Assembly (NCBI RefSeq): GCF_003515065.1
Contig: NZ_QXGH01000029.1
Location: 1 to 64,000 of the forward strand
DNA length: 64,000 nucleotides
Source of the DNA: Nocardioides immobilis
GTDB taxonomy: Bacteria > Actinomycetota > Actinomycetes > Propionibacteriales > Nocardioidaceae
Direction: 5' to 3'
Part shown: one piece after another, positions 44,149-61,062 of the stretch
How the letters are laid out: every line of letters starts with the position of its first letter
How positions within the stretch are numbered: the stretch's first letter is position 1
Program-made: the position numbers and the translations under genes
The notes under the pieces: model-generated
Databases searched by the model: none
What the model was told of the DNA's origin: nothing
What the model saw: only the letters and a program-made list of their open reading frames with translations

Positions 44149-45099
44149 ATGACCCAACGACGTGCACTCGCCATCGGCTGCGGCGGCACCCTCGGCTTCG
44201 CCTGGACCGCGGTCGCGCTGCGGGCGCTGGAGGAGCAGCTCGACTGGGACGCGCGGACCGCCGACGTCCTCGTCGGGACCTCTGCCGGCGCCGAGATCGT
44301 GGCGGCGCTCGGCTCCGGCCGCACGCCGCAAGACCTGCTCGACGCCCTCGACGGCCGGGACCACGCCGACCCGCTGCTCGCCGGTCACGTGGCGGACCAC
44401 CCCGGCAGCATCCCGCCGGTCCCCGCCCTCGCGCTGCCCGCGCTCGGGTTGGTGCGGGCCGGGATCGCCCGGCGTTCGCCGTACGCCGCTCTTGCGGGCC
44501 TCCTGCCGCGCGGCCGCGGCGACGCCACCTGGCTGAGGGAGTACGGCGATGCGCTCGCCGGCGCCGACGGCTGGACCGCGCACCGCGACACCTGGATCGT
44601 GGCCGCCGACGTCGCGACGGGGGAGCGGGTCGCGTTCGGCTCGGCCGGCGCCCCACCCGCTCGGCTCGGCGAGGCGGTCGCCGCGTCGTGGGGCATCCCC
44701 GGCTGGTTCCCGCCCGTCGAGATCGCCGGTCGGCGCTTCGTCGACGGCGGTGCGGTCTCCTCCGTCTCCGCCGACCTCCTGGTCGGCCAGCCGGTTGGCG
44801 AGGTCGTCGTAGTGGCGCCGATGACGTCGGCGGGCGGAGCTCCGGCTCGCGGCCTGAGCCGGGTCGAGCGGCTGCTGCGCACCCAGATGACCATCGGCCT
44901 CGACCGCGAGGTTGCCGCTCTCGAGGCCGCGGGGATCCGGGTGGTCCGGGTCGAGCCCGGTCCCGAGGAGCTGGCTGCCATGGGCCCGAACTTCATGGAC
45001 CTGTCCCGCCGCGACGCCACCCTGGCCGCGGCCCGCACGCACGTCCCCGGCCGGGTCGCCTCGGCGATCGGGGCCGCCATCGAAGGAGCCAAGGCATGA
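44149..45099 (+). CDS. Patatin-like phospholipase
   Basis: 316 residues. Oxyanion motif GCGGTLGFAWTAVALR, nucleophile Ser in GTSAGAE and catalytic Asp in FVDGGAVS are all present. No secretion signal. The start has no SD; the ATG follows TAGTAT by 7 bases. It leads an overlapped operon with a Baeyer-Villiger monooxygenase and SDR. A hydrolase beside a BVMO is common, since the ester product must be cleaved, which suggests ketone to ester to alcohol plus acid. Confidence 0.88.
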   Translation: MTQRRALAIGCGGTLGFAWTAVALRALEEQLDWDARTADVLVGTSAGAEIVAALGSGRTPQDLLDALDGRDHADPLLAGHVADHPGSIPPVPALALPALGLVRAGIARRSPYAALAGLLPRGRGDATWLREYGDALAGADGWTAHRDTWIVAADVATGERVAFGSAGAPPARLGEAVAASWGIPGWFPPVEIAGRRFVDGGAVSSVSADLLVGQPVGEVVVVAPMTSAGGAPARGLSRVERLLRTQMTIGLDREVAALEAAGIRVVRVEPGPEELAAMGPNFMDLSRRDATLAAARTHVPGRVASAIGAAIEGAKA

Positions 45100-46601
45100 A
45101 CCATCACCACGAGGTCGTCGTGATCGGCGCCGGCATCTCCGGCATCGCCGCGGCGATCAAGCTGCGGGAGGCCGGTGTCGCGGACGTCGTCATCCTCGAG
45201 AAGGCCGAGACCTACGGCGGCACCTGGCGGGCCAACACCTACCCCGGCTGCGCGTGCGACGTGCCGTCCAACCTCTACTCATACTCCTTCGCCCCCAACA
45301 GCGACTGGTCGCGCGTCTACGGCACCCAGCCGGAGATCCTGGCCTACGTCGACCGGGTCGCCCGCGACCACGGGCTCGAGGAGGTCACCCGGTTCGGCGT
45401 CGAGGTGACCGGAGCGCGGTGGGACGAGGCGGCCGGCCAGTGGCGCGTCGAGACCACGACCGGTGAGATCGCGGCGCGCTTCGTCGTCGCCGCCGCCGGA
45501 CCGTGGAACGAGCCCAAGATCCCCGACCTGCCGGGCCTGGCCGACTTCCCCGGGGAGGTGTGGCACTCCGCTCGCTGGAACCACGACTACGACCTGACGG
45601 GCAAGCGGGTCGCCGTGATCGGCACCGGCGCCTCGGCCGTGCAGTTCGTGCCCGAGATCCAGAAGCAGGTCGCCGATCTCCGCCTCTTCCAGCGCACCGC
45701 GCACTGGGTGCTCCCCAAGGTGGACCACCCGGTGCCGAACGCCGAGAAGTGGGTGAAGCGCAACGTGCCGCTCTTCGAGCGGGCGCTGGGCGCCGTCGAG
45801 TACGCCGCGATGGAGGGCGTCGGCACCGCCTTCCACCACCCGAAGCCGCTCATGCACGCGCTGCAGAAGGTCGGCCAGGCCTACCTGCGGGCGGCCGTGC
45901 GGGACAAGGAGCTGCGGGCGAAGCTGACGCCGCAGTACCTCCTCGGCTGCAAGCGGATCCTCTTCTCCAACAACTACCTGCAGTCGCTCACCCAGCCGAA
46001 CGTCGAGGTCCACGCGACCGGCGTCGACAGGGTCGAGGGCTCCACCGTCGTCGGCTCCGACGGCACGACGGCGGAGGTCGACGCGATCATCCTCGGCACC
46101 GGCTTCCACATCCTCGACATGCCGGTGGCCGACCTGGTCCGCGGTGCCGACGGCCGCACCCTCGCCGAGCACTGGGCGGGCTCGCCGGAGGCCTACCTCG
46201 GCACCGTCGTCGCCGGCTTCCCCAACGCGTTCGTGGTGCTGGGTCCGAGCCTCGGCACGGGCCACAGCTCGGCGTTCGCGATCGCCGAGGCGCAGGTCGC
46301 ACTGATCGTCGACGCGGTCACCACGGCTCGGAGGGAGGGATGGGCCGCGCTCGCCGTACGACCCGAGACGCAGGCGGCGTACGTCGACGACGTGCAGGCC
46401 GCGCTGGCCGGCACCGCCTACAACGCGGCCAGCTGCCACAGCTACTACATCGACGCCAACGGCCGGAACAGCTTCAGCTGGCCGTGGTCCACCGGCGAGC
46501 TGGTCCGCCGGGTCAGCCGCTTCGACCCTGCCGACTACGAGATCACCGTCCCCGCGCACGCCGAGCCTGTCGAGGCGAAGACCCAGGAGGTCACCGCATG
46601 A
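45096..46601 (+). CDS. Flavin monooxygenase, Baeyer-Villiger type
   Basis: 501 residues. FAD motif GAGISGIAAAIKL, NADPH motif GTGASAVQFVPEI, and the BVMO fingerprint FPGEVWHSARWN (FxGxxxHxxxW with Asn instead of Pro/Asp). It should insert oxygen next to a ketone, forming an ester or lactone. Similar to MymA (Rv3083) and to monooxygenases of cyclic-ketone pathways. Overlaps the patatin and SDR genes by ATGA. Confidence 0.9.
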   Translation: MNHHHEVVVIGAGISGIAAAIKLREAGVADVVILEKAETYGGTWRANTYPGCACDVPSNLYSYSFAPNSDWSRVYGTQPEILAYVDRVARDHGLEEVTRFGVEVTGARWDEAAGQWRVETTTGEIAARFVVAAAGPWNEPKIPDLPGLADFPGEVWHSARWNHDYDLTGKRVAVIGTGASAVQFVPEIQKQVADLRLFQRTAHWVLPKVDHPVPNAEKWVKRNVPLFERALGAVEYAAMEGVGTAFHHPKPLMHALQKVGQAYLRAAVRDKELRAKLTPQYLLGCKRILFSNNYLQSLTQPNVEVHATGVDRVEGSTVVGSDGTTAEVDAIILGTGFHILDMPVADLVRGADGRTLAEHWAGSPEAYLGTVVAGFPNAFVVLGPSLGTGHSSAFAIAEAQVALIVDAVTTARREGWAALAVRPETQAAYVDDVQAALAGTAYNAASCHSYYIDANGRNSFSWPWSTGELVRRVSRFDPADYEITVPAHAEPVEAKTQEVTA

Positions 46602-47437
46602 GCCGCTATCCCAAGATCGACCTCGGCGGCGCGCTCGTTGCGATTACCGGCGCCGCCCGGGGCATCGGGCTGGCGACCGCGAAGGAGTTCGTCGCCGCCG
46701 GTGCACGGGTCGCGCTCGGCGACCTCGACGACGCCCTCGCGAAGGAGGCCGCCGCCGGCTTGGGCGCGCAGGCCAGCGGTCACCGGCTCGACGTCACCGA
46801 CAAGGAGTCGTACGCGGCGTTCCTCGCGGCCGCCGAGGAGCACCACGGACGCCCGATCGACGTTCTCGTCAACAACGCCGGCGTCATGCCCAACGGCCCC
46901 TTCCTCGACCAGGCGGACCGGATCGACCGGCTGACGATGGACGTCAACGTCTACGGCGTCATCCACGGCATGCGGCTCGCGCTGCCCGCGATGATCGAGC
47001 GCGGGCAGGGCCATGTCGTCAACGTCGCCTCGCTCGCCGGCAAGTTCCCCATCAAGGGGCTCGCGGTCTACAACGCCAGCAAGTACGCCGTCGTCGGCCT
47101 GACGGCCGCCACCCGGCTCGAGCTCGAGGGCACCGGGGTGTCGATCACGGCGGTGCTGCCGAGCGCCGTCATGACCGAGCTGTCCTCGGGCATCGACTAC
47201 GGCGTGCTGCCGGCTGTCGAGCCGGACGACATCGCCGCCGCCGTCGTGAAGTCGGTCCGCAGCCGGCGCGCCGAGGTCGCCGTGCCGTCGTACGTCGGGC
47301 TGGCAGCCAACGGCGCGCCGCTGGTGCCCGAGGGCGTGATGCGCCGCTTCCGGCACCTGGTGCACGACGACGCCGCGATCACCCGGGTCGACGACTCGGT
47401 GCGCAAGGCGTACCTCAACCGGATCGAGAACCAGTAG
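46598..47437 (+). CDS. Short-chain dehydrogenase (SadH-like)
   Basis: 279 residues. AITGAARGIGLATAKEF, NNAGVMPNG, VNVASLAGKFP and YNASK are complete. Its length and C-terminal extension match SadH-type SDRs found beside MymA-type monooxygenases in mycobacteria. It probably oxidises the alcohol whose ketone the BVMO attacks. The TAG stop lies 8 bases before the nested-palindrome repeat. Confidence 0.9.
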   Translation: MSRYPKIDLGGALVAITGAARGIGLATAKEFVAAGARVALGDLDDALAKEAAAGLGAQASGHRLDVTDKESYAAFLAAAEEHHGRPIDVLVNNAGVMPNGPFLDQADRIDRLTMDVNVYGVIHGMRLALPAMIERGQGHVVNVASLAGKFPIKGLAVYNASKYAVVGLTAATRLELEGTGVSITAVLPSAVMTELSSGIDYGVLPAVEPDDIAAAVVKSVRSRRAEVAVPSYVGLAANGAPLVPEGVMRRFRHLVHDDAAITRVDDSVRKAYLNRIENQ

Positions 47438-47445
47438 GAGCCCTG

Positions 47446-47539
47446 CAGGAATCCCCGGTGAACCGGGGAAACTTGCACTTGTCGGCCATTGCAACCCCCG
47501 ACAAGTGCAGGAACCCCCGGTTCACCGGGGATTCCTGCA
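47446..47539. repeat. Nested-palindrome repeat, copy 1
   Basis: The outer arms run TGCAGGAATCCCCGG to CCGGGGATTCCTGCA. Each outer arm contains its own small palindrome (CCCCGGTGAACCGGGG, CCCCGGTTCACCGGGG). Inner arms CACTTGTCGG and CCGACAAGTG surround a loop with ATTGCAAC. The whole folds into one long hairpin between two convergent genes. A copy roughly 80% identical lies at 60968-61062. The 3' edge supplies the last codons and stop of the LLM gene. Confidence 0.85.
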
Positions 47540-48541
47540 CCCCGCCGCCACGTCCAGCCCGAGCGAGTCGTCGGCGGCGTAGGGGATCGACAGGATGACC
47601 CGCTCGGCGAGGCCGTCGAACCGCTCCCGTACGGCGGCGCCGGCCTGGTCGAGCTCGGAGACGACGGCGAGCGTGGTGAGGACCTCGTCGTCGACGAGGT
47701 CGCCGAGCTCGGTCCAGCGACCCGCCTTCGTGAATGCGTGTGCCTCGGCGTGCAGGTCCCCCCAGCCGTGGTGGTCGAGCACCGGCTTGTAGGCGGGGGT
47801 GGACGCGTAGAACCCGATCTGCCGCTTGGTGCCGGCGATCGCCTGGGCGTAGCCCTCCTCGGTCCGCCCGGTCGCGACCATCGCCATCGCAGCGACGGTG
47901 AAGTCGCCACTCGCACCGGTGCTCGTCCGGCCCTCGGCAAGCTGCGGGCGGAGCACGTCCTCCAGGTAGCTGCGCGAGAGCAGCGGGTGGCACATGAAGC
48001 CGTCGGCAACCGCGCCCGCGGTCGCGACCATCCGCGGCCCGACCCCGGCCAACCAGATCTCGGGGGAAGGGAAGCCGAGCGGGCCCGGGTTGAAGAGCGG
48101 AGGCATCAGGGTGTGCGTGTAGAAGTCGCCCCGGAAGTCGAGGGCCTCTCCGGTCTGCCAGGTGTGCCAGATCGCCCGCAGGGCGGCGATGTACTCGCGC
48201 ATCCGGTCCGCCGGTCGCGACCAGGGCATGGAGTAGCGGCGCTCGATGTGCGGCTTGATCTGCGACCCGAGCCCGAGGATCAGACGTCCTCCGGACAGCC
48301 GGTGCACGTCGTACGCCGGATAGGCCATCGCCATCGGGGAACGGGCGAACGCGAGCGCGATCGACGTACCGATGCGGAGCCGCTCGGTCCGGGTCGCGGC
48401 CAGCGTCAGGTAGACGAACGGATCGTGCGCGCCCTCAGGCACGTAGAGCGTGCTGCTCGGGCTGCGCTCCTCGACCGCACGCGCGACGGCGCCGATCCCC
48501 GCTGGGTCGCCGTGGTAGGTCAGGTCGATCTCAGTGGCCAC
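47522..48541 (-). CDS. LLM-class F420-dependent oxidoreductase
   Basis: 339 residues in a luciferase-like TIM barrel: LYVPEGAHDPFVYLTLAATR, RIGTSIALAFARSPM, GGRLILGLGSQIKPHI and GFPSPEIWLAGVGPRM, matching the TIGR03617-type branch. The cofactor is probably F420. GTG 48541 sits behind GAGGTG. A KstR-like box lies 28 bases upstream. The final residues GCRNPR and the TGA are encoded by the repeat at 47446-47539, so the element has replaced or extended the natural C terminus. Confidence 0.88.
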   Translation of the reverse strand: MATEIDLTYHGDPAGIGAVARAVEERSPSSTLYVPEGAHDPFVYLTLAATRTERLRIGTSIALAFARSPMAMAYPAYDVHRLSGGRLILGLGSQIKPHIERRYSMPWSRPADRMREYIAALRAIWHTWQTGEALDFRGDFYTHTLMPPLFNPGPLGFPSPEIWLAGVGPRMVATAGAVADGFMCHPLLSRSYLEDVLRPQLAEGRTSTGASGDFTVAAMAMVATGRTEEGYAQAIAGTKRQIGFYASTPAYKPVLDHHGWGDLHAEAHAFTKAGRWTELGDLVDDEVLTTLAVVSELDQAGAAVRERFDGLAERVILSIPYAADDSLGLDVAAGCRNPR

Positions 48542-50509: not shown

Positions 50510-52333
50510 ATGGACCCGTTGAACCCGCTGAACCTCCAGTGGTACCAGCACCCCTCCCTGGTGCTCCAGCTCCGTGCGCTGACGAAAGAGCGCAAGGACC
50601 TGCGCGAGAAGAACCTCTTCGAGGGCGAGGGCACCCGTCCCGACGGCGACATGGGCGAGCCCACCCCCGAGGTGGCGCGCGCCCGCACCCCGGAGGGGAC
50701 CTGGAACGACGTGGGCTGCCCGATGATGGGCGCCAAGGGCACCGGCTTCGGCCGCAACGTGCCGATCGAGAAGACGGTCGTCGACCGCAAGAACCTGCTC
50801 AACCCCGACCCCCGCGAGATCAGCCGGAAGCTGATGGCGCGCGACACGTTCAAGCCGGCCGGCATCCTCAACGCGCTGGGCGCCGCCTGGCTGCAGTTCG
50901 AGAACCACAACTGGTTCTTCCACGGCAACGGCGTCGCCGACAAGGTCATCAACATCCCGCTCCAGGACGGCGACGACTTCCCCGAGAACCCGATGCGGAT
51001 CCGGGAGACGATCCCGCTGCACGGCGAGATCAAGGACGGGTGCCCGGCGCCGGTGTTCGCCAACCAGGAGACTCACTGGTGGGACGGCTCCCAGATCTAC
51101 GGCAGCGGCCAGGAGAAGCAGGGCCAGATCCGCACCTTCGTCGACGGCAGGATCCACGTCGACGAGGACGGCCGGCTGCCGCTCAGCGAGGACATCCCCG
51201 GCGTCGACCTGACCGGCATGCAGGAGAACTGGTGGTTCGGCCCCGGCCTGCTGCACACGCTCTTCGCCCGTGAGCACAACACCGTCGTCGCGGCGATCAA
51301 GAAGGCGCACCCGGAGTACGACGACCAGCGGCTGTTCGAGCTCGGCGTACTGGTCGTCTCCGCCCTCATCGCCAAGATCCACACCGTCGAGTGGACCCCG
51401 TGCGTGCTGCGGCATCCGGCGCTGCAGATCGGCATGAGCGCCAACTGGTACGGCGCCCTCGGCGAGGCCTTCCGCGACAAGGTCGGCCGGGTCGGGGACA
51501 GCGAGGCGCTGTCCGGCATCATCGGCTCCTCGACCGACCACCACTCCGCGCCGTTCTCGCTGACCGAGGAGTTCGTGTCGGTCTACCGGATGCACCCGCT
51601 CATCCCCGACGACTGGACCTTCTACTCGCTGGAGAGCGGCGTGCAGGTGCAGGAGGCCTTCTTCACCGACCTCCAAGGCCGCTACACCCGTGACTTCATG
51701 GACAGCCTGGAGATGGGCGACATGTGGTACTCCATCGGCAAGGCCAGTGCCGGCGCGGTCTGCCTGCACAACTACCCGAACTCGCTGCGCAACCTCACCC
51801 GCGTGGACGGCCAGATCACCGACCTGGCGACCCTCGACATCGTCCGCGACCGCGAGCGCGGGGTGCCGCGCTACAACGACTTCCGCGAGGCCCTGCGGAT
51901 GCCACGGCGCAAGCGGATCGAGGACATCACGCCCAACAAGCAGTGGGCGAAGGAGATGAACGAGATCTACCACGGCGACGTCGACGCGGTGGACCTGCAG
52001 ATCGGCATGCAGGCCGAGCAGCCGCCGAAGGGCTTCGGCTTCTCCGACGTCGCGTTCCGGATCTTCATCCTGATGGCCTCGCGCCGACTCAAGAGCGACC
52101 GGTTCTTCACCAAGGACTTCCGGCCGGAGGTCTACACGAAGACCGGCTTCGACTGGGTCAACGAGAACTCGATGAAGGACGTCCTGCTGCGGCACTACCC
52201 CGAGCTGGAGACGGTCATCGGCGACGTGGACCGGGTCTTCGCGCCGTGGCCGGAGCTGGGCGCCCCCGCCCCCGGGCAGAAGCCGGTGATCCTGCGGGCG
52301 GCGGACACCGTGAAGTCGTACCTGCCGTGGTGA
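50510..52333 (+). CDS. Haem dioxygenase of the alpha-DOX/cyclooxygenase superfamily
   Basis: 607 residues, no signal peptide. The distal haem region is WLQFENHNWFFHG (His133, His138). The catalytic core VSVYRMHPLIPD places Tyr359 three residues before proximal His362, exactly as in plant alpha-dioxygenase and fungal Ppo enzymes. These form a tyrosyl radical that peroxidises fatty acids. SD TAGGAG precedes ATG 50510. A P450 gene follows after 10 bases, recreating the dioxygenase-P450 pair that is fused in fungal Ppo proteins. Fatty-acid substrate is inferred. Confidence 0.88.
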   Translation: MDPLNPLNLQWYQHPSLVLQLRALTKERKDLREKNLFEGEGTRPDGDMGEPTPEVARARTPEGTWNDVGCPMMGAKGTGFGRNVPIEKTVVDRKNLLNPDPREISRKLMARDTFKPAGILNALGAAWLQFENHNWFFHGNGVADKVINIPLQDGDDFPENPMRIRETIPLHGEIKDGCPAPVFANQETHWWDGSQIYGSGQEKQGQIRTFVDGRIHVDEDGRLPLSEDIPGVDLTGMQENWWFGPGLLHTLFAREHNTVVAAIKKAHPEYDDQRLFELGVLVVSALIAKIHTVEWTPCVLRHPALQIGMSANWYGALGEAFRDKVGRVGDSEALSGIIGSSTDHHSAPFSLTEEFVSVYRMHPLIPDDWTFYSLESGVQVQEAFFTDLQGRYTRDFMDSLEMGDMWYSIGKASAGAVCLHNYPNSLRNLTRVDGQITDLATLDIVRDRERGVPRYNDFREALRMPRRKRIEDITPNKQWAKEMNEIYHGDVDAVDLQIGMQAEQPPKGFGFSDVAFRIFILMASRRLKSDRFFTKDFRPEVYTKTGFDWVNENSMKDVLLRHYPELETVIGDVDRVFAPWPELGAPAPGQKPVILRAADTVKSYLPW

Positions 52334-52343
52334 GTGGCCAAAA

Positions 52344-53657
52344 ATGAGGGATTTCAAGCACGCCTCGATCGTCGAAGGGGTGCGCTTCACCGCTCAGGTG
52401 GGCGTCCCGAACGTGGTCCAGGGCCTGTTCCGGAAGCGCGAGGCAGTGGTCAGCGCGATCGACAAGCTGCCCGCCGACCACCTCGCGTACCGGCTGGTCG
52501 AGGGCCTCGCCCGCAAGTACGGCCCGGACCCGTTCTGGGTGCGGGTCGGCGCCGAGGAGACGCTGCTCGTCACGCACCCCGACGACATCCGCGTGGTCCT
52601 TGGTGGCTCGCCGTCGCCGTTCGCGTCCGACCCGGACGCCAAGCGCAAGGGCATGAGCGCGTTCCAGCCGGACGCCCTCACGATCTCGCGGGGCGACCTG
52701 TGGGCCGACCGCCGGGCGTTCGCCGAGGCCGTCCTCGACACCGGCCGGACGATCCACCGGCTGGCCGAGGGCTTCGCCGCGGCCACCGTCGCCGAGGCCG
52801 ACGCGCTGCTCGCGCTCGGCCGGCCGCTGAAGTTCGAGGACGTCAACCTCGCGTTCCAGCGGCTCACCCGGGTCGTCGTGCTCGGCGCGGCCGCCGCCGA
52901 CGACACCGCGCTGACCGAGCAGCTGGGGTCGCTGATGGCGGCCGGCAACAAGATGCCCGGAAAGCCGGCCGAGGGGTACGACGACTTCCACACCCACCTC
53001 GCCGAGTACGTCGCCACGCCCGATCCCGCCGCTCTCACCGGCCTGATCGCGTCCGCTCCGCAGAGCGACGACACCGATGTACCGGGCCAGCTCATCCACT
53101 GGCTGTTCGCCATGGGCGACACGCTCCCGAGCAACCTGATGCGCGCCCTCGCCGTACTCGCCACGCACCCGCTGGTGCTCGACGACGCCCGGGCCGAGGT
53201 GGGCCGCAAGGACCTGACCGTGGTCGAGGACGTCGCCGACGCGTCGTACCTCGCCGGCTGCATCCTCGAGGCGATGCGGCTGTGGCCCACGACCGCCCTC
53301 TTCGGGCGGGTCCAGGTCGAGGACCACCGGTGGGTCAACGGCCAGAAGACACCGGCCGGCACCCAGGTGCTGATCCACAACCTCTTCAACCACCGCAACC
53401 GGGACCGGGTGCCGTTCGCCGACCGGTTCGCCCCCGAGGAGTGGGTCACCGGCACCGCCGGCGACGACTGGCGGTTCAACTTCTTCAGCCACGGCCCGCA
53501 AGGCTGTCCGGGCGCCGGGCTGTCGATCTTCCTCGGCCAGGCGTTCCTGGGACGACTGATCACCGCCGGCAACCCCAAGCTCGTCAGCGGGCCGCGGCTC
53601 AAGGGCGACCGGCTGCCGTACGGCCTCGACATCTACGGCCTCGAGATCCGGGTCTAG
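52344..53657 (+). CDS. Cytochrome P450, partner of the haem dioxygenase
   Basis: 437 residues. Haem-thiolate Cys388 in FFSHGPQGCPGAG, K-helix LEAMRLWP (ExxR), and I-helix FAMGDTLPSN with the acid-Thr pair. No membrane anchor. The intact Thr suggests ordinary oxygen activation, though a peroxide-rearranging role (diol, allene-oxide or hydroperoxide isomerase) would also fit its position directly after a dioxygenase. No ferredoxin or reductase gene is nearby, consistent with a redox-partner-free reaction on a hydroperoxide. Confidence 0.9.
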   Translation: MRDFKHASIVEGVRFTAQVGVPNVVQGLFRKREAVVSAIDKLPADHLAYRLVEGLARKYGPDPFWVRVGAEETLLVTHPDDIRVVLGGSPSPFASDPDAKRKGMSAFQPDALTISRGDLWADRRAFAEAVLDTGRTIHRLAEGFAAATVAEADALLALGRPLKFEDVNLAFQRLTRVVVLGAAAADDTALTEQLGSLMAAGNKMPGKPAEGYDDFHTHLAEYVATPDPAALTGLIASAPQSDDTDVPGQLIHWLFAMGDTLPSNLMRALAVLATHPLVLDDARAEVGRKDLTVVEDVADASYLAGCILEAMRLWPTTALFGRVQVEDHRWVNGQKTPAGTQVLIHNLFNHRNRDRVPFADRFAPEEWVTGTAGDDWRFNFFSHGPQGCPGAGLSIFLGQAFLGRLITAGNPKLVSGPRLKGDRLPYGLDIYGLEIRV

Positions 53658-60964: not shown

Positions 60965-60967
60965 TGG

Positions 60968-61062
60968 TGCAGGGATCCCCGGTCGACCGGGGATTCGTGC
61001 GCTTGTCAGGCAATGCAACGCCCGACAAGTGCAAGTTTCCCCGGTCGGCCGGGGATTCCTGC
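60968..61062. repeat. Nested-palindrome repeat, copy 2
   Basis: Same architecture as 47446-47539: outer arms TGCAGGGATCCCC and GGGGATTCCTGCC, small palindromes CCCCGGTCGACCGGGG and CCCCGGTCGGCCGGGG, inner arms GCTTGTCAGG and CCCGACAAGTGC, loop with AATGCAAC. Arm bases differ from copy 1 but mostly still pair. It starts 3 bases after the kinase-fusion stop and ends 11 bases before the furA -35. Confidence 0.85.

Follow-up and report, generated by a model that had tools for sequence, protein, structure and literature searches.

A window of 64,000 nucleotides (positions 1 to 64,000 of the forward strand of contig NZ_QXGH01000029.1, assembly GCF_003515065.1) was analysed from Nocardioides immobilis, a soil bacterium with a genome (G000) of about 6.5 Mb. 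This article deals with two adjacent genes of the window which encode an alpha-dioxygenase (alpha-DOX, here DOX) of the An_peroxidase family and a cytochrome P450 (P450) of a divergent family. An earlier note on this DNA had described a dioxygenase followed after 10 bases by a complete P450 and had taken the two for a bacterial counterpart of the fungal dioxygenase-P450 (Ppo) oxylipin synthases. Both open reading frames (ORFs) were recovered where the note had placed them, at 50510-53657 on the + strand: the DOX gene, of 607 amino acids (aa), occupies 50510..52333, the P450 gene (437 aa) occupies 52344..53657, and the 10 nt between them cover 52334..52343. Each ORF opens with ATG, and a simple codon-usage gene caller returned the same ends for both.

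The dioxygenase and the P450

On the basis of sequence and predicted fold, the dioxygenase is a member of the alpha-DOX family of plants and cyanobacteria and not of the fungal linoleate 8/10-DOX type. The Pfam family An_peroxidase (PF03098) covers residues 59-569 with 310.7 bits, and in a phmmer comparison with the PDB the rice and Arabidopsis alpha-DOX scored 376.8 and 372.7 bits, followed by 8s6c (60.4 bits) and by COX-2 (49.3 bits). Foldseek placed the alpha-DOX structures 4kvl, 4kvj, 4hhs and 4hhr on top at 35-36% identity, with E values of 3.5e-38 to 6.4e-37, whereas the structure ranked after them had 1.9e-19; the AlphaFold model behind this comparison had a mean pLDDT of only 70.4. NCBIfam assigned the protein to no family, and a comparison with phage sequences gave no match.

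The working residues of rice alpha-DOX are the distal His157, the catalytic Tyr379, the proximal His382, and His311, Thr316 and Arg559, which serve the carboxylate and the alpha carbon (PMC8720084). All six are matched in the alignment by the distal haem His133 (codon at 50906..50908), Tyr359 of a Tyr-Arg-Met-His motif (Tyr359-Arg360-Met361 at 51584..51592), the proximal haem His362 (51593..51595), the carboxylate-binding His291 (51380..51382), Thr296 and the carboxylate-binding Arg526 (52085..52087), all on the + strand. The intact Tyr359/His362 site proposed in the earlier note was therefore confirmed, together with four further residues. His133, His291, Tyr359, His362 and Arg526 are invariant in a conservation set of 33 chosen rows (A2); all six residues are intact in 58 of the 61 related loci described below, the other three being matches cut short whose covered part agrees, and the distal position is His in 61/61. 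Among the rows of Table 2 listed in PMC13049297, the fungal DOX motif at the catalytic tyrosine is Tyr-x-Trp, which is absent from the window enzyme. Bacterial members of the alpha-DOX family, actinobacterial ones included, were already reported (PMC8720084). Since the dioxygenase is an alpha-DOX, as judged by Tyr-Arg-Met-His and His291/Arg526, O2 should enter at C2 rather than C8 or C10 and yield a 2(R)-hydroperoxy fatty acid, a compound which otherwise decays to the Cn-1 aldehyde or is converted to the 2-hydroxy acid (PMC9305512).

The P450 carries its haem thiolate ligand, Cys388 (53505..53507, + strand), in a Phe-x-x-Gly-type loop, and Glu309-x-x-Arg312 is present. The cysteine is kept in 54/54 sequences of an alignment that took 54 of 58 relatives (those of at least 400 aa) and is invariant in a conservation set of 45 chosen P450 rows (A1), while Glu309 is replaced by Asp in 9/54. 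Pfam p450 (PF00067) matched the C-terminal part only (residues 242-406, 74.9 bits) and NCBIfam gave matches below its cut-off; AlphaFold predicted a full standard P450 fold with a mean pLDDT of 93.8. Similarity to solved P450s is weak among the matches listed (best 47.6 bits with the single sequence and 94.3 bits with a profile), and the 60 PDB matches listed from both searches contain no CYP152 entry. The nearest folds, CYP97C1, CYP51, BM3 and CYP184A1, are nearly tied, all lying within about 1.3 Z, therefore the fold says nothing on the chemistry, and the absence of CYP74, CYP152 and Ppo-like structures from the best 50 fold matches listed carries no weight.

The fungal DOX-CYP fusions (Ppo or linoleate diol synthases, epoxy alcohol synthases and allene oxide synthases) follow a like logic, in which a dioxygenase of the cyclooxygenase (COX) superfamily is joined with a P450 that probably uses the hydroperoxide. 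The window pair differs from them in being encoded by two ORFs with their own stop and start instead of one polypeptide, and in having an alpha-DOX in place of an 8/9/10-DOX. The P450 also lacks the fungal motifs Asn-Gln-x-Gln and His-x-Cys (PMC13049297), having Thr260-Leu-Pro-Ser at the Asn-Gln-x-Gln position of the linoleate diol and epoxy alcohol synthases and Gln386-Gly-Cys388 where the linoleate diol synthases carry His-x-Cys. Membership of the Ppo family was rejected, as neither the DOX type nor the P450 motifs fit; what survives of the comparison made in the earlier note is the general logic, which need not reflect common ancestry of the pairing.

Conservation of the pair and exchange of its partner

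The search for dioxygenase-P450 pairs in other actinobacteria which the earlier note had proposed recovered them both among close relatives and across the class of the host. One genome per species was scanned with short peptides taken from the DOX of the window itself, a procedure biased to close relatives, and 61 related loci were collected. In 56 of these the DOX is accompanied by a relative of the P450, in five arrangements: the P450 gene follows the DOX gene in tandem in 46 loci, precedes it in tandem in 5, lies downstream beyond one intervening gene in 2, lies on the opposite strand about 2 kb off in 2 and is divergent in 1. Of the 46 loci with the P450 in tandem downstream, 44 have a gap between -7 and +22 nt, and the other two (L029 and L045) show a broken reading frame. 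Among the five loci without a P450, the DOX is cut by a contig end in three and the flank is only 1.7-2.0 kb in L051; the fifth, L018, is considered below. The genera bearing the pair include Nocardioides, Aeromicrobium, Mycobacterium, Mycolicibacterium, Gordonia, Williamsia, Skermania, Antrihabitans and Amycolatopsis, and it also occurs in Thermoleophilaceae. In G042, a genome of the host's genus, the DOX is identical to that of Nocardioides sp. Root240 (L150 and L021).

From the host's class 393 genomes were drawn and searched with whole proteins, the threshold for the P450 family being E to 1e-20. Alpha-DOX was found in 28 genomes, the P450 family in 45 and both in 14, with co-location in 10; under independence about 3.2 genomes would be expected to hold both (28 x 45 / 393, relatedness ignored). 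The P450 is close by in all five genomes of this draw in which the DOX is at least 78% identical, and when seven genomes chosen for an alpha-DOX or P450 match were checked it was recovered in six, the miss (G026) having a DOX of only 50% identity. No description of a bacterial alpha-DOX-P450 pair was found in the titles and abstract openings among the literature matches listed, a search which left subscription journals largely outside. The conserved pair is part of a wider pattern in related bacteria for which no description was found, and suggests a little-known pathway of oxidised fatty acids.

The 28 alpha-DOX genomes of the class draw contain 34 alpha-DOX places, and partners were sought by tblastn in the window and in stretches of at most 19 kb surrounding the other 33, with stretches shortened by contig ends at L146, L161, L174, L178 (338 bases on one side) and L187. 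Proteins were labelled catalase-related from two queries (CATn and CATr) and Pfam. A P450 is present at 10 places, the window included, a catalase-related partner at 12, where it is fused or within about 4 kb, and a DyP-type peroxidase alone at two. P450 and catalase-related partners were found together at none of the 34 (hypergeometric p 0.005, relatedness not corrected). DyP, whose identification is firm (E 4.9e-52), lies near four alpha-DOX places and accompanies the catalase-related partner at 2 of the 12. Catalase and An_peroxidase domains share one chain in all three proteins checked by Pfam and do so in both orders, with DOX first in L153 (G456) and catalase first in L164 (G416) and in L168, a plasmid protein of Rhizobium phaseoli; no alpha-DOX/catalase-related fusion was described among the literature matches listed.

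In the DOX tree, for which 18 of the 61 loci were taken, most rows paired with the P450 group in two clades, and most of those with a catalase-related partner likewise in two; this tree and the P450 tree cited below, which omits ten rows that were redundant or cut, are both quick searches without bootstrap. A P450 or catalase-related partner accompanies 19 of the 21 alpha-DOX that have the distal His. Where Arg or Lys stands at this position (12 places), a P450 is found at 0/12 and a separate catalase-related gene at 2/12, one further place being not scorable. The Arg/Lys group comprises L154-L160, L163, L175, L176, L178 and L181, and a DyP-type peroxidase gene lies near four of its members.

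Catalase-related proteins act as a group on fatty acid hydroperoxides and work without a reductase. Because they take the place of the P450 beside alpha-DOX, the P450 is read as a partner that would handle the hydroperoxide, and this exchange is the best evidence for such a role. Since the pairing is fixed and the P450 is replaced by catalase-related proteins, the best reading of the locus is a relay of two haem proteins acting on free fatty acids, in which the P450 would take the hydroperoxide made by the DOX; its probability is put at about 0.58. The earlier proposal of a dioxygenase that peroxidises a fatty acid and a P450 that uses the hydroperoxide is retained as the best reading, with C2 as the expected site of attack. 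Every reaction of the relay is deduced from the genes, residues, fold, conserved pairing and partner exchange that were observed. As suggested by family and residues, the Tyr359 radical of the alpha-DOX would put O2 on C2 to give the 2(R)-hydroperoxy fatty acid, and the adjoining P450 would capture this unstable compound ahead of decarboxylation and split its O-O bond, leaving a 2-hydroxy acid. Less firmly, the second oxygen would most likely be returned to the same chain, so that the P450 may act as a hydroperoxide isomerase which forms a 2,x-dihydroxy acid and requires no reductase. In some relatives a GlcD-like 2-hydroxyacid oxidase and a thiamine pyrophosphate (TPP) decarboxylase may then oxidise and shorten the product.

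Possible reductase dependence of the P450

The alternative that survives best is catabolic alpha-oxidation. Here the DOX would degrade fatty acids, some of them perhaps branched, by way of 2-hydroperoxides to the Cn-1 aldehydes, and the P450 would be a normal monooxygenase, dependent on O2 and ferredoxin, that acts on the fatty acid or the aldehyde. This is considered rather unlikely. A motif scan of the called small genes detected no ferredoxin-like gene in the window or in the available stretches of the 61 loci, in agreement with the earlier note that no redox partner lies nearby, and this counts against a ferredoxin-dependent P450. The same scan recovered 4/4 ferredoxins that neighbour other P450s in the host genome, and reported none in 19 other stretches. 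Nine Fer4_15 ferredoxins are found elsewhere in the genome and could serve the P450 from there.

Several observations weigh against the relay, and the first of them bear on the reductase. A Fer4_15 ferredoxin, the one ferredoxin family searched genome-wide, lies within 6 kb of only 7 of the 25 P450s of the genome; as the other 18 are likewise without, the absence of a nearby ferredoxin means little alone, and it was rejected as a decisive sign. The window P450 also keeps Asp259-Thr260 (53118..53123, + strand) in its I helix, as do most of its relatives (Asp259 in 48/54 and Thr260 in 50/54 aligned P450s). This acid-alcohol pair is used by O2-dependent P450s and is described as absent from the CYP152 peroxygenases, which use H2O2 and attack fatty acids likewise at the carboxyl end (PMC10988616); the window P450 therefore lacks this CYP152 feature and shares the pair with the monooxygenases that depend on O2 and a redox partner. 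A missing pair is moreover not rare, since a clear call of the acid-Thr pair was made in only 12 of 19 other P450s of the genome found by their Cys loop, two of the rest being unresolved.

The pair has been lost in one paired sub-clade, a point which argues against the catabolic alternative. Four loci (L026, L033, L035 and L041) have Ala-Asn for Asp-Thr with an intact DOX and a gap of 4-6 nt, and their I helix reads Ala-Leu-Lys-Ala-Asn-Gln/Glu (Gln in L026, L035 and L041, Glu in L033) in place of Ala-Met-Gly-Asp-Thr-Leu. In the P450 tree this clade is nested within mycobacterial Asp-Thr sequences (SH-aLRT 100). The acid-Thr pair is also lacking in 22 of 23 more distant P450 relatives, including five in the alpha-DOX operons of the f20 family described below. 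Asn stands at the corresponding position in diol and epoxy alcohol synthases, where mutants indicate that it can be dispensable, and fungal allene oxide synthases vary at the I-helix Asn, which is dispensable in several mutants (PMC13049297). Taken as a decisive test, the I helix was rejected, given that the window keeps Asp-Thr and that the baseline of the genome is mixed. With the catalase-related replacement also speaking for it, the chance that the P450 would work without a reductase is placed a little above even. The Ala-Asn P450s next to an intact alpha-DOX are a naturally occurring test case for P450 chemistry without a reductase.

The remaining points against the relay concern the pairing, the exchange and the fold. 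The DOX of L018 is 78% identical to that of the window and has no P450 in 7 kb on each side. The P450 family occurs in 31 of its 45 genomes without alpha-DOX, and G372 carries a P450 of 47% identity and no alpha-DOX match. None of the partners was found at 10 of the 34 alpha-DOX places, some of these stretches being short. The catalase domains of the fusions have weak Pfam scores of 28.1, 26.8 and 22.7 bits, one of them below the cut-off of 25, and that of L164, the only one tried, gave no PDB match. The partner labels track the clades of the DOX tree, which leaves the exchange resting on few events, and the fold comparison of the P450 is generic.

Gene neighbourhoods and the possible fate of the 2-hydroperoxide

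In five genomes of the f20 family, perhaps Streptomyces-like and 7.9-9.2 Mb in size (L145-L149), a benzoylformate-decarboxylase-like TPP decarboxylase, a GlcD-like flavin adenine dinucleotide oxidase, the P450, a hydrolase-like protein with a weak match and alpha-DOX follow one another in this order. This order fits a putative alpha-oxidation from fatty acid through the 2-hydroperoxy, 2-hydroxy and 2-oxo acids to the Cn-1 aldehyde. In 17 loci, most of them mycobacterial, the pair has an ACOX-like protein close by; in two Nocardioides this protein stands between the two genes. Such catabolic-looking neighbours favour the catabolic alternative, to which the replacement of the P450 by catalase-related proteins in other alpha-DOX clades is opposed. 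In the window no ACOX-like, GlcD-like oxidase or TPP decarboxylase gene is found near the pair. Ten genes that adjoin P450 relatives without alpha-DOX are of ten different kinds, one of them a TPP decarboxylase (L140). At this locus (G452, a genome without an alpha-DOX match) the P450 lies beside the decarboxylase and other genes common to the L145 neighbourhood, and it may serve another role.

A second alternative, regarded as quite improbable, is peroxide clean-up, in which the P450, like the catalase-related proteins, would mainly destroy leaked 2-hydroperoxides or H2O2 and no specific oxylipin would be formed. The interchange with catalase-related proteins and the DyP peroxidases near four alpha-DOX places are compatible with it, as are P450 relatives without alpha-DOX that lie near catalases (a manganese catalase in 3/20 loci; 2 of 3 plasmid regions examined). 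P450s are poor catalases, however, and alpha-DOX loci keep tightly to a single type of P450, which points to a defined substrate. That the two genes are neighbours with no shared pathway is strongly disfavoured: the P450 family does exist without alpha-DOX, as counted above, but the pair recurs in five arrangements and both families coincide in far more genomes than independence predicts, relatedness not being corrected.

Other features of the window were also recorded. Between 43478 and 47437, upstream of the pair, a TetR-type regulator on the - strand is followed on the + strand by genes for a patatin-like phospholipase (44107 or 44149-45099), an FMO-like flavoprotein (45096-46601) and an SDR protein (46598-47437), which overlap by a few bases. 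The phospholipase could supply the DOX with released fatty acids. The SDR protein cluster was found again at seven further loci; the flavoprotein recurs in L001, where both lie upstream of the DOX as in the window. A gene of about 215 aa (cluster c2) is conserved in 43 loci, repeats of one place counted, often directly upstream of the DOX (for example at 6287-6934 of L030); nothing in Pfam matches it, its PDB matches all have E above 0.1, and another recurring gene (c16) gave nothing in Pfam or PDB. A palindromic repeat of about 95 bp, counted at 20 places in the genome, lies at 47440-47540 and at 60967-61062 of the window. It folds to a single extended hairpin (-48.3 kcal/mol as DNA, z -12.8), and is probably a dispersed REP- or MITE-like element; the two window copies have opposite orientation and bracket about 13.5 kb that include the DOX-P450 pair.

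Enzymes of the same family as the window DOX are known from plants and cyanobacteria (rice 4kvj/4kvl, Arabidopsis 4hhr/4hhs and Calothrix CalDOX), and their catalytic Tyr, proximal and distal His, carboxylate His and Arg, and Thr all have counterparts in the window enzyme; unlike these described alpha-DOX, the window enzyme is paired with a P450, a term absent from the main text of PMC8720084. COX and thromboxane or prostacyclin synthase likewise form a system of separate dioxygenase and P450 in which the P450 is self-sufficient (PMC13049297), although substrate, product and P450 families differ from those of the window pair. The oleate diol synthase PA2077/PA2078 of Pseudomonas aeruginosa also combines a bacterial dioxygenase with a second enzyme that acts on the hydroperoxide (PMC4496055), but these proteins have CXXCH haem motifs, are of the dihaem cytochrome c peroxidase type and do not correspond to alpha-DOX plus P450. 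A cyanobacterial catalase-dioxygenase fusion that converts linoleate joins dioxygenase and hydroperoxide enzyme in a similar manner (PMC11719350), with a catalase domain and a linoleate dioxygenase in place of alpha-DOX and P450. With PA2077/PA2078, oxylipin synthesis by the products of two genes is already known in bacteria, from enzymes unrelated to the window pair.

A broader proposal, offered as tentative and rather doubtful, is that actinobacteria, including mycobacteria, possess an unrecognised alpha-oxylipin pathway in which the 2-hydroperoxide of alpha-DOX would be converted to a 2,x-dihydroxy acid by a dedicated reductase-free P450, the second step being handed between unrelated haem proteins (the P450, a catalase-related domain fused in both orders and perhaps DyP). 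If this were true, the P450 would be, to our knowledge, the first known to act on 2-hydroperoxides, and a cofactor-free P450 might become available for biocatalysis. Bacterial alpha-dioxygenases are known as enzymes and, within the literature examined, not as parts of pathways; the P450 partner, and the catalase-related proteins found in its stead, provide a testable idea for the fate of the 2-hydroperoxide in bacteria. The pair could represent a further origin of the combination of dioxygenase and P450 that animals and fungi possess.

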